Shown here in pieces: positions 3,604 through 5,547 of a stretch of 5,547 bases of DNA. The position numbers and the translations under genes are program-made. The stretch spans positions 1 to 5,547 of the forward strand of contig JAGBCZ010000037.1 in the NCBI GenBank assembly GCA_017937735.1. The letters are read 5' to 3'. Numbering within the stretch: the first letter of the stretch is position 1; every line of letters starts with the position of its first letter. The DNA is from Alphaproteobacteria bacterium. GTDB lineage: Bacteria; Pseudomonadota; Alphaproteobacteria; Rs-D84. Below the pieces are notes generated by a model. It did no database searches and had not been told where the DNA came from. It saw nothing but the letters and a program-made list of their open reading frames with translations.

Positions 3604-4040
3604 ATCATTGCAATTGCATTTTCTAAAATTACACGTGCAGACTGTGAATCTAGTTTTTGTTTGATATCACGCACACGAACGCGTCCCATTGATTCTTGGG
3701 CAGAAACAGAAGTTAAATTTTCTTCTATCATACAAATTGGCAAATCTGTTTTTTCAGATAAATCTTGCACAAAATCACGCACCATCTTTGTTGTATCAGA
3801 TTCCGTACCATCATTATACACAGGCAACCCAACAACAACACCGACGACATTTTCTTCGTCTGCAATTTTTGCAACAATATCCGCATGATTTTTTGCACCA
3901 CATGCCACCCCTACCCCAGGTCTAGCAAACACAAAGTCCCAAGTCGCATCAGATACAGCAACGCCAATTCTGCGTAAACCCCAGTCAACACCTAAGATGC
4001 GTCCGCCGCGTGGAAAACCCTTGAAATCTGGCAAAATCAT
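3591..4040 (-). CDS. ruvX: RuvX/YqgF Holliday-junction resolvase-like nuclease
   Basis: RNase H-fold nuclease of the YqgF family: annotated as a putative Holliday junction resolvase, and YqgF in E. coli also acts in 16S rRNA 5'-end maturation. The protein has 149 residues, close to the usual 135-155. Visible motifs: GVDWGLRRIGVAVSD (residues 17-31, first catalytic Asp19), VVGLPVYNDGTESD (69-82), IEENLTSVSAQ (105-115, matching the usual DERLTT..A motif) and LDSQSARVILE (130-140, with the C-terminal acidic Asp131). The Arg usually following the central Glu is Asn108 here. On the - strand, AAAGGA sits eight bases before the ATG, which supports the start at 4040. It diverges from gatC across 37 bases, an arrangement I know from alphaproteobacteria. 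Its last codons and stop lie in the shared terminator hairpin. Confidence 0.94.
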   Translation of the reverse strand: MILPDFKGFPRGGRILGVDWGLRRIGVAVSDATWDFVFARPGVGVACGAKNHADIVAKIADEENVVGVVVGLPVYNDGTESDTTKMVRDFVQDLSEKTDLPICMIEENLTSVSAQESMGRVRVRDIKQKLDSQSARVILENAIAMIKRA

Positions 4041-4048
4041 TGTATAAT
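4021..4048 (+). promoter_or_regulatory. sigma70-type promoter for the gatC operon
   Basis: TTGAAA (4021-4026), a 16-base spacer and a perfect TATAAT (4043-4048) give a near-consensus housekeeping promoter reading rightward. The start site would be near 4055, leaving a leader of about 23 bases before the gatC ATG. The -35 box and most of the spacer lie in the first codons of ruvX. This is a motif match only; it has not been mapped. Confidence 0.7.
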
Positions 4049-4062
4049 TCCTTTACTTTATA

Positions 4063-4091
4063 AATATAGGATTGAAAATGGCATTTAGCAA
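4063..4091 (-). promoter_or_regulatory. candidate promoter for ruvX
   Basis: On the - strand, TTGCTA (4091-4086), a 17-base spacer and TATATT (4068-4063) resemble a sigma70 promoter reading leftward. The match is 4 of 6 bases at -35 and 5 of 6 at -10. Its start site would be near 4056, giving a leader of about 15 bases before the ruvX ATG. The -35 box lies in the first codons of gatC. It is weaker than the opposing gatC promoter and overlaps the zone that promoter's polymerase would occupy. Confidence 0.45.
4068..4070 (+). promoter_or_regulatory. ribosome binding site deciding the gatC start
   Basis: The AGG of TATAGG lies seven bases before the ATG at 4078. An in-frame TTG at 4072 would be only one base away from it, so the ATG is the better start and the TTG-initiated extension by two codons is disfavoured. 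Confidence 0.6.
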
Positions 4092-4374
4092 GCAACAATT
4101 ACAAAAATTCGCTGATTTAATCAAGATTGAAATATCAGACGAAAAACTGGCCGAAATGAACATTGACTCTGTTATTGAATGGCTGGACAAATTGCAACAG
4201 ATTGATACAACTGGTGTAGAACCGATGTTAAATCCGTCGGAACACAAATTACCTATGCGTGAAGACATTGTCACAGACGGTAATATTCGTGATTTGGTTT
4301 TGGCAAACACACCTGATAACGCGGGCACATCACGCGGATATTTTGCTGTACCAAAAGTAATGGAAGGGGAATAA
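4078..4374 (+). CDS. gatC: Asp/Glu-tRNA amidotransferase subunit GatC
   Basis: Small subunit of the GatCAB amidotransferase, which converts Glu-tRNA(Gln) and/or Asp-tRNA(Asn) to the amide form in the cytoplasm; GatC wraps around and stabilises the GatA-GatB interface. The protein has 98 residues, within the usual 90-105. It shows the family pattern: an N-terminal helix with FADLIKIEISDEKL, a helix ending in EWLDKLQQIDTTGVEPM, the conserved PMREDIVTDG (residues about 59-68 in this start frame) and the C-terminal GYFAVPKVMEG. The ATG at 4078 is chosen over the TTG six bases upstream because of the AGG spacing. A near-consensus promoter lies just upstream. Normally gatA follows directly, but here two unrelated small genes intervene, the first only 3 bases after the gatC stop. 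Confidence 0.94.
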   Translation: MAFSKQQLQKFADLIKIEISDEKLAEMNIDSVIEWLDKLQQIDTTGVEPMLNPSEHKLPMREDIVTDGNIRDLVLANTPDNAGTSRGYFAVPKVMEGE

Positions 4375-4377
4375 ATC

Positions 4378-4776
4378 ATGAAAGATTCAACGGTAAAAAT
4401 AGTTATTCCATATTTAACAAATTTAAATTTAGAAACATCGACAGAAGATGCGATTAAACTGTTAGATTTGATAAAAAATACAGATATAAAAAATTCAACC
4501 TGTATTAAATCTTTCTTTAATGGTGAATTGGCAATCAGTACACATAATTCTGTCAGCACTGCTAGCATACACAGCGAACTGAAACTGTTGGGTTTGGCAA
4601 ACATGCAAAAAACAATATGCCAACCAGCCCAAGGTAAATTAGCATACACACAATCAAAACACGATATGTTAAAACGTTGCTTAAACAATCTGCAATGTGG
4701 CAAATGCCAAGATGAATATGTACGCAGAACTGTTGGTGCCGTACTATTCCCACAACACTATGCAAAGCAGAAATAG
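4378..4776 (+). CDS. unrecognised cysteine-containing small protein, copy 1 of a tandem paralog pair
   Basis: I do not recognise this 132-residue protein. It is soluble-looking, with no signal peptide or membrane segment. It has five cysteines: C42, C81, C101, C107 and C110. Its C-terminus (residues 101-132) has the signature C..NL..GKCQDE followed by GAVLFPQHYAKQK. The next gene is a full-length paralog: 22 of the last 32 residues are identical, and residues 22-46 align without gaps to residues 32-56 of copy 2 (shared A25, D30, N34, C42, K44, S45). Between the two blocks the proteins differ in length and are hard to align. The start is supported by AGGGGA (4365-4370) in the end of gatC, seven bases upstream, with only 3 bases between the genes. 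Translation is probably coupled to gatC. Shared Cys and His residues could bind a metal or form disulfides; that is inference. A longer antisense frame exists here but is rejected. Confidence 0.85.
   Translation: MKDSTVKIVIPYLTNLNLETSTEDAIKLLDLIKNTDIKNSTCIKSFFNGELAISTHNSVSTASIHSELKLLGLANMQKTICQPAQGKLAYTQSKHDMLKRCLNNLQCGKCQDEYVRRTVGAVLFPQHYAKQK
4678..4773 (+). repeat. conserved 3' block of paralog copy 1
   Basis: The last 32 codons of the first small gene form a diverged direct repeat with 5104-5199. Two 14-base stretches are identical between copies: GGCAAATGCCAAGA (4699-4712 and 5125-5138) and TTCCCACAACACTA (4747-4760 and 5173-5186). Differences elsewhere are largely synonymous or conservative, so this is old gene duplication rather than a recent DNA repeat. 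Confidence 0.85.
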
Positions 4777-4785
4777 GAAAACAAA

Positions 4786-5202
4786 ATGTCAAAACAAACA
4801 AACAATATTCCTATTAATTTTTTAGTGTACGAACCGTACAATGATTTTCCACAAACAATCAGACTTGGTCGCATTACACAAAGTCAAGCACTTGAAACCA
4901 TAGATAAATTCAGGAACAGTCGCCCTACAGAAAAAGCATGTCTTAAATCATTACAGGTAAATTACACAGATATCGTAAATTTTGAATCATTTAAAACTTA
5001 CGGTAAAAAACATGGGGTTCTAAATATATCTGGCATGTTCTTTCCTGACTATAAACCAAAATGTGCAAAATGTAAAAACGAAGATTTAGCAAAAGTAAAA
5101 TGCTGTGCACGCAATTTGCGTGCCGGCAAATGCCAAGACGAATTTATAAGAAAAACATTGGGTGCTATATTGTTCCCACAACACTACGGAAAGCAAAAAT
5201 GA
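4786..5202 (+). CDS. unrecognised cysteine-rich small protein, copy 2 of a tandem paralog pair
   Basis: I do not recognise this 138-residue protein. It is the paralog of the gene directly upstream, with no signal peptide or membrane segment. The six cysteines are C52, C93, C96, C106, C107 and C116; C93 and C96 form a CxxC that copy 1 lacks, so a zinc- or metal-binding knuckle is conceivable. The C-terminal block (residues 107-138) carries NLRAGKCQDEFIRKTLGAI and then LFPQHYGKQK. C52, C107 and C116 match C42, C101 and C110 of copy 1; C93 and C81 may correspond. The ribosome site AGGA (4775-4778) overlaps the stop of copy 1 and is seven bases from the ATG. The TGA stop overlaps the gatA ATG (ATGA at 5199-5202), so gatA translation is probably coupled to it. 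The residue pattern shows selection on the protein: 7 of 19 identical residues in the last 25 use different codons in the two copies. Confidence 0.88.
   Translation: MSKQTNNIPINFLVYEPYNDFPQTIRLGRITQSQALETIDKFRNSRPTEKACLKSLQVNYTDIVNFESFKTYGKKHGVLNISGMFFPDYKPKCAKCKNEDLAKVKCCARNLRAGKCQDEFIRKTLGAILFPQHYGKQK
5104..5199 (+). repeat. conserved 3' block of paralog copy 2
   Basis: Partner of the block at 4678-4773, in the same orientation and at the same position relative to the gene end. Twenty-two of 32 encoded residues are identical. Both copies end KQK just before their stops (TAG in copy 1, TGA in copy 2). Confidence 0.85.
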
Positions 5203-5547
5203 TAAACCTGACAATAGTTGAAGCATTAGAAAAATTAAACAATGGCGAAATTTCGTCTGTTGAATTGACAAAAGCGTACTTAGACCGCATTGAACAATAT
5301 GGTGCTGATTTAAATTGTTATATCACAACAACACCAGAACGTGCCATGGCAGATGCCGCCGCATCTGATGCCAGACGCGCATCTGGTGATGCCATGCCCC
5401 TGGACGGAATACCATTGGCAATGAAAGATTTGTTTGCAACACGCGGGATTCGCACAACTGCCGCTTCACGCATGCTGGAAAATTTTGTACCAGAATACGA
5501 ATCGACTGTTTCACAAAATTTAATTAATGCGGGTACAGTATTATTGG
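5199..5547 (+). CDS. gatA: Asp/Glu-tRNA amidotransferase subunit GatA, 3' end outside window
   Basis: N-terminal 116 codons of the catalytic amidase subunit of GatCAB, which releases ammonia from glutamine or asparagine for the amidation of mischarged tRNA. The protein begins MINLTIVEALEKLNNGEISS, typical of GatA, followed by VELTKAYLDRIE. The amidase-signature start is clear: LDGIPLAMKDLFATRGIRTT (residues 68-87), in which Lys76 is the base lysine of the Ser-cisSer-Lys triad, then ASRMLENF and PEYESTV. The two catalytic serines would lie beyond the right edge. The start ATG (5199-5201) shares ATGA with the stop of the preceding gene. No strong ribosome site of its own is seen upstream (AAAGCAAAA), which fits initiation by ribosomes finishing the upstream gene. 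It is the last gene of the gatC operon in view; gatB would be expected later or elsewhere. Confidence 0.95.
   Translation, partial: MINLTIVEALEKLNNGEISSVELTKAYLDRIEQYGADLNCYITTTPERAMADAAASDARRASGDAMPLDGIPLAMKDLFATRGIRTTAASRMLENFVPEYESTVSQNLINAGTVLL

Follow-up and report, generated by a model that had tools for sequence, protein, structure and literature searches.

The gatC–gatA locus

The window, by which we mean the whole 5,547-nucleotide stretch of DNA analysed here, carries part of sufB (assigned by eye), sufC, which encodes an ABC ATPase, genes for a membrane protein and an AI-2E-type transporter, ruvX on the minus strand (RuvX by Pfam, 5.9e-30), gatC, two genes designated X1 and X2, and gatA, in that order (Table 1). 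We placed the gatC start at the ATG at 4078, whereas the list of open reading frames has TTG 4072. The region contains nine promoter-like sites, compared with a shuffle mean of 6.9.

An earlier note on this DNA had described X1 and X2 as two unrecognised paralogous genes inserted between gatC and gatA, the first 3 nt past gatC, the second 9 nt past the first and overlapping gatA by 4 nt. This description holds. BLASTP identifies the two proteins as paralogues (E = 4e-19, 34% identity across 109 aa), the TGA of X2 overlaps the gatA ATG (5199), and the same short distances support the tight translational packing that the note had read from them. Likeness between X1 and X2 peaks in the C-terminal ~35 residues, where a 105-nt direct repeat is 72% alike. 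Elsewhere in the window, positions 1620–2534, between sufC and the AI-2E transporter gene, encode a basic 304-aa membrane protein that no Pfam family matches significantly.

Table 1 Features of the gatC–gatA junction in the window
Feature	Position	Strand	Evidence or remark
Sigma-70-like promoter match upstream of gatC	4021..4048	+	TTGAAA-16-TATAAT, 11/12; consensus match only
gatC (Glu/Asp-tRNA amidotransferase subunit C), left border of the slot	4078..4374	+	PF02686, 1.1e-13; stop ends at 4374
Purine-rich GGAAGGGGA within the final gatC codons, likely RBS of the first inserted gene	4362..4370	+	Sequence reading; putative function
X1, 132 aa, X family	4378..4776	+	3 nt past gatC; predicted fold pLDDT 84.5, pTM 0.78
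AGGAAAA spanning the X1 stop, likely RBS of X2	4775..4781	+	Sequence reading; putative function
X2, 138 aa, X family	4786..5202	+	9 nt past X1; predicted fold pLDDT 80.1, pTM 0.73
GGAAAG within the final X2 codons, likely RBS of gatA	5188..5193	+	Sequence reading; putative function
gatA, right border of the slot	5199..5547, continues beyond the window	+	PF01425 Amidase/GatA, 3.2e-25

The X family

Neither X1 nor X2 gave a significant match in Pfam (sub-cut-off matches only, best 0.053), PHROGs, NCBIfam or PADLOC, in keeping with the note's view of the family as unrecognised. Database searches returned 23 proteins for X2, the window's own included, and nine for X1, so both belong to protein families and are not chance frames. 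A profile search with X listed 68 proteins, and the only name shown for X relatives in the database listings is 'hypothetical protein'. The closest relatives of X1 elsewhere share 55–98% identity with it, against 33% for X2; the X1/X2 duplication is therefore old. In the X tree, which has many long branches, X2 groups with gat-slot X proteins of the near relatives G001 and G002 (97*).

Seven columns are invariant in a 46-sequence alignment: C42, C101, G108, C110, G120, F124 and Y128 (X1 numbering). Structure prediction, which the note had also proposed, gave X1 a beta-beta-alpha-beta-beta domain followed by C-terminal helices bearing conserved cysteines, and the same order of strands and helices was predicted for X2. 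The Cys-bearing tail is probably zinc-stabilised.

The junction in related genomes

When one genome per species was scanned, four loci (L001–L004) emerged, all at gatC–gatA and all in ruminant-gut MAGs named 'Alphaproteobacteria bacterium'. Three of them have one or two X genes at the junction, and two have a gene of a second family, F2. In L004 (G004; also L043), a 17-codon relic of an X C-terminus (10001–10051) lies behind the F2 gene and directly before gatA; here X was replaced or eroded, and the relic may have been kept for supplying the gatA RBS. By eye, L001–L004 also carry a gene resembling the 304-aa membrane protein of the window at the equivalent place, and each of the four has a tRNA-Phe(gaa) gene in the gatA–gatB interval, on the opposite strand.

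The wider survey covered 183 relatives with genomes of about 0.5–1.1 Mb, a group that, judged by its class, host and size, appears to fit the order Rs-D84/Candidatus Enterousia as described in an excerpt of PMC12306168. Searches located gatA in 177 of them and gatC in 176, and gaps were measured in the 144 genomes common to the two lists (150 rows listed of each). The gatC–gatA gap is either 4–85 bp (62 genomes) or 303–2049 bp (82 genomes), with none between. All 82 wide gaps were analysed, in forward frames, so that the description of the inserts as co-directional rests on forward family genes filling the gaps.

Before any profile was built, an all-against-all comparison of the 126 forward gap frames plus X1 and X2 yielded groups of 104 and 15 and nine singletons; 119 of the 128 proteins thus fall into two clusters, the larger being joined through fusions. 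Profiles built from the gap genes themselves divide these proteins into X, F2 (~91 aa), F4 (~200 aa) and a family of ~125 aa that resembles the alpha-CTD and has a coiled coil. The proteins of all four families are basic, with a median pI of 8.8–9.5. At least one of their genes is present in 81 of the 82 wide gaps, and X in 63. The exception, G159, encodes a single protein there; by eye it seems to carry a signal peptide, and Pfam does not match it. The 128 family genes occur singly in 49 genomes, in twos in 21, in threes in seven and in fours in four. The note had judged the family, its duplication and its location worth attention, and had named absence from every close relative, which would make the pair a one-off insertion, as grounds for rejecting its reading; the inserts recur across the survey, which supports the former and shows that the latter does not apply.

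Family genes span 0.67–1.19 of the gap in 80 genomes; in G033 the share is 0.46. Values above 1 arise because gap genes were taken from the longest start, which makes frames overlap on paper. For the second gap gene of G033, a by-eye label as CTD was rejected, backed by neither profile nor Pfam, and the gene is left unassigned. Median spacing is 6 nt from gene to gene, 12 nt before gatA and 5 nt after the gatC match, which omits the stop and sometimes the last residues. In empty-gap genomes the purine-rich end of gatC directly precedes gatA. With a wider profile, X was detected in 90 of the 183 family genomes, in none of 18 other genomes of the order and in none of 384 other genomes of the class.

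The F2, F4 and alpha-CTD families

Every one of the 21 F2 hits lies beside gat, 18 inside the gap and three just upstream of gatC. F4 gave 19 hits better than 1e-9, 16 of them beside gatA (15 in the gap and one in G138); two others lie elsewhere (G088 and G081) and one is unplaced (G170). Among five weaker F4 rows, the three loci read are UvrC, one of them confirmed by Pfam. A possible relation of F4 to the UvrC N-terminal domain (GIY-YIG) reaches 5e-7 at best in hmmsearch, with a target that is UvrC by Pfam, and a probability of only 44.5% in hhalign. Beside uvrC, L150:2065-2511, L151:1995-2474 and L156:1330-1794 encode proteins with pilin-like N-termini (by eye), which could bear on DNA uptake; the one tested had no Pfam match at 1e-5.

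The alpha-CTD family matches solved structures at 1.9e-14. Its member in L052 scores above the PF03118 cut-off (36.2 vs 23.8 bits; Pfam 5e-9), and those in L048 (22.7 bits) and in the L112 fusion (15.4 bits) score below it. X is fused to alpha-CTD-like domains in the gat gap of G044/G143. X, F2 and F4 had no significant match in any family library searched.

X genes away from gat

Among the 150 X hits listed, the gap accounts for 76; another 61, from 40 genomes, lie elsewhere, and 13 come from genomes whose gat pair was not resolved. Nine of the 62 empty-gap genomes have X elsewhere among these hits. Of 19 non-gat loci read, 12 have neighbours that could be named: five have X in the queH–fabD interval, three beside an MBL-fold gene near ftsH/tilS, two beside gyrA, one beside pheT and one in the secY–rpoA interval. 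Neighbours were named by eye, and Pfam confirmed one each of QueH, FabD-type acyl transferase, MetG, PheT, GyrA, FtsH, TilS-type PP-loop protein, SecY and MBL protein. Comparing positions by eye, with the identity of QueH checked for one, we found queH adjoining six of the 61 non-gat X hits among those listed. All six genomes belong to the window's 27-row clade of the GatC/GatA tree.

The X copies at the MBL place are fusions to acyl carrier protein. Genes with the X domain behind the carrier domain are L135:3618-4298, L135:5020-5784, L136:2186-2869 and L123:6017-6775; three of these fusions exceed the PF00550 cut-off of 20.8 bits (31.5, 47.6 and 48.5), and that of L123 falls below it (14.9). 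The X gene beside gyrA in L130 (4420-4914) is the sister (100*) of the gat-gap X of the same genome (G033, L098), which suggests movement between slots within one genome.

In L121:3169-4152 an X domain is followed by ~170 residues without a Pfam match. Between metG and queH lie genes for small Cys-containing proteins of ~100 aa (L036:8601-8921, L125:2972-3274, L129:4871-5197 and L120:5792-6425), of which the one tested had no Pfam match; this interval is possibly another variable slot. Cys-rich small proteins with a C-x-G-C-like motif near the start (by eye) are encoded beside non-gat X in L119:272-903, L123:6794-7660 and L128:375-2089.

Turnover and exchange of the inserts

We mapped insert presence onto a weakly resolved tree of GatC plus the first 100 GatA residues, whose 136 rows comprise the window and 135 of the 144 genomes, including 53 of the 62 empty ones. 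Presence requires 23 changes, against 42.2 in shuffles, and at least five of these are forced by starred branches. Even very close pairs differ in slot content: G146 (X) and G136 (empty) at a gat dS of 0.094, G128 (alpha-CTD) and G091 (empty) at 0.206, G026 (F2) and G042 (X, F4) at 0.248, and G019 (X, X, F2) and G043 (empty) at 0.351.

Silent divergence was compared for 37 gene pairs of the same family, similar length and ≥60% protein identity, a selection that biases the set toward recent sharing. Insert dS was lower than gat dS in 21 pairs and higher in 14, with two saturated. At P<0.01 the two differed in 16 pairs, the insert being less diverged in ten and more diverged in six (e.g. G144/G130 and G090/G045); replacement by a distant homologue would explain the latter, as could other causes. 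At P<1e-6, insert dS was below gat dS in seven pairs from five species pairs, which points to movement of inserts between species.

In G021/G035, for example, dS is 0.071 for X and 1.01, 1.57 and 1.08 for ruvX, gatC and gatA, respectively (X vs gatC plus gatA start, Fisher P=1e-15), and identity climbs to 93–100% at the end of gatC and drops just inside gatA. G080 and G095 have a near-identical X in common at different array positions. In G058/G068 the flanks are nearly identical and F4 has diverged slightly more, and in G037/G125 part of the insert has diverged more than the flanks. Insert dN/dS could be computed for 34 pairs; it is 0.77 in one of them and 0.04–0.36 in the other 33. This purifying selection indicates that the inserts are functional and not debris.

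A ComEC-type domain (PF03772) was found in 11 of 12 genomes, making DNA uptake plausible. DNA taken up in this way could then be exchanged through homologous recombination at two conserved stretches, the end of gatC and the start of gatA. The window's slot has no inverted repeat, and the gaps contain no recognised mobility gene.

Discussion

We consider it probable that one family of gut Alphaproteobacteria with reduced genomes has an exchange slot within its gat operon, and that X1 and X2 are occupants of this slot. Comparison of relatives shows that the junction is either empty or filled, in 81 of 82 filled cases with one to four small genes from the X, F2, F4 and alpha-CTD-like families, and that this content is often gained, lost and replaced. 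In at least some cases the inserts pass horizontally between species, and purifying selection keeps them intact. Tight coupling would allow their expression from the gat promoter: the first insert, starting a few bases past gatC, would use the purine-rich gatC end as its RBS, and the last would supply the RBS of gatA.

The function of the slot proteins is the least certain part of this reading. They may be conditionally useful cytosolic accessory factors, small and basic, and not amidotransferase subunits. Our best guess is that they act in conflict, either in defence against mobile elements or in immunity to competitors; none of ten proteins (X1, X2, three more X, F2, CTD, two F4 and ACP-X) matched PADLOC-DB 2.0.0 at E≤0.1. 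More broadly, and tentatively, the slot could be the main home of an accessory system in which interchangeable small basic adaptors of four kinds act on core machines (tRNA amidation, transcription via alpha-CTD, fatty-acid synthesis via ACP fusions), are traded between species as single genes and rely for their expression on being nested in essential operons; they would probably form a repertoire for defence or against parasites. We regard this broader view as possible but doubtful. X itself is probably not a GatCAB subunit: in 62 of the 144 genomes GatCAB has no insert between gatC and gatA, so an insert is not present wherever the clade's GatCAB is.

An unlikely alternative, which survives better than the others, is that the four families are optional factors of GatCAB or translation, involved in transamidosome assembly or mistranslation tuning, and exchanged for tuning one enzyme. 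Only four families recur, all tied to one junction, F2 solely at gat and F4 nearly so; an indiscriminate hotspot should gather many kinds, and the restriction therefore suggests a functional tie to gat and keeps a translation-related role alive. The basic character of the families, common among RNA binders, fits as well. There is also a precedent: an excerpt of PMC8406222 describes stimulation of H. pylori GatCAB by Hp0100, called QueH, a report made intriguing by the X genes that adjoin queH. That the junction itself can matter follows from a gatC–gatA fusion in M. smegmatis, reported in an excerpt of PMC7541841 to cause mistranslation.

Against such a role, the empty-gap genomes with both gatC and gatA manage without an insert, X also occurs near gyrA, pheT, secY–rpoA and ftsH/MBL genes, and the alpha-CTD has no obvious part in tRNA amidation. 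The queH link comes from a single clade around the window, and in all five queH loci read X lies on the strand opposite queH, which excludes co-transcription of the two. The earlier note had offered two roles for the pair, accessory factors of tRNA amidation or passengers using a strong housekeeping promoter. Passengers fit much better; the accessory role fits more poorly with the empty junctions, the variety of four families, on/off switching, sharing between diverged species and the many other places of X.

It is improbable that the inserts descend from an ancestral tandem family by vertical inheritance with many losses and no mobility. Such descent would accommodate three observations: genomes with an insert cluster on the tree, X2 falls together with gat-slot X proteins of near relatives, and in 16 of the 37 pairs silent-site divergence is greater for the insert than for its flanks if the two saturated pairs are counted with the 14 higher ones. 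The five species pairs with insert divergence far below that of the flanks contradict it unless their contigs are chimeric, and the displaced X of G080/G095 also speaks against it. Chimerism of MAGs (L001–L004 are MAGs and the other genomes probably too) is a possible though unlikely source of the pattern, and mis-assembly around shared short genes is a very improbable explanation of it given 81 genomes whose open family frames, with few exceptions, fill most of the gap, borders at gene ends, tight spacing and purifying selection.

The proposed exchange slot can be set beside several known systems. Hotspots of gene exchange between conserved core genes, carrying defence genes or cargo, are a familiar kind of locus, and variable genes are usually sought in islands, in prophages and at tRNA genes. 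Like such hotspots, the gat junction is a fixed site between conserved genes that is alternately empty and filled among relatives (62 vs 82 of 144) and has variable, horizontally exchanged content (7 of 37 gene pairs at P<1e-6). It differs in being part of an operon, flanked by the genes for two subunits of a single essential enzyme and packed with gaps of a few bases, and in containing four small-protein families and no recognised mobility gene. In open-licence PMC literature we found no description of a slot within an enzyme operon that holds four small-protein families at operon-grade spacing.

Orphan immunity arrays, namely T6SS immunity arrays in Vibrio and acquired interbacterial defence clusters in Bacteroidales, are, in the excerpts of PMC5361080 and PMC10470768, likewise tandem sets of small, diverse, exchanged genes without toxins; X, F2 and F4, in contrast, match no library family significantly, and the slot proteins are basic and encoded in a housekeeping operon. 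As with Helicobacter Hp0100/QueH in the excerpt of PMC8406222, an extra protein might act with GatCAB and X adjoins queH in some relatives, but X is not QueH, its partner role is putative, and many relatives keep gatC–gatA without an insert. One slot family is a clear relative of the RNA polymerase alpha subunit CTD (PF03118); it differs in being free-standing, with a coiled coil in place of the alpha N-terminal domain, and it is distinct from X.

Exchanged genes with near-perfect operon packing mean that annotation by the rule 'operon partner = functional partner' would mislead here. The gat slot offers a clean system for studying how reduced genomes swap genes within essential operons. It also yields X, F2 and F4, three protein families without a significant match in the family libraries searched. 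The slot may reach beyond gatC–gatA, since just upstream of gatC we observed F2 in G044 (C10:92847-93143, in L155), G057 (C54:2477-2773) and G139 (C3:3555-3851), and three X genes in G061 (C98:7431-8672).
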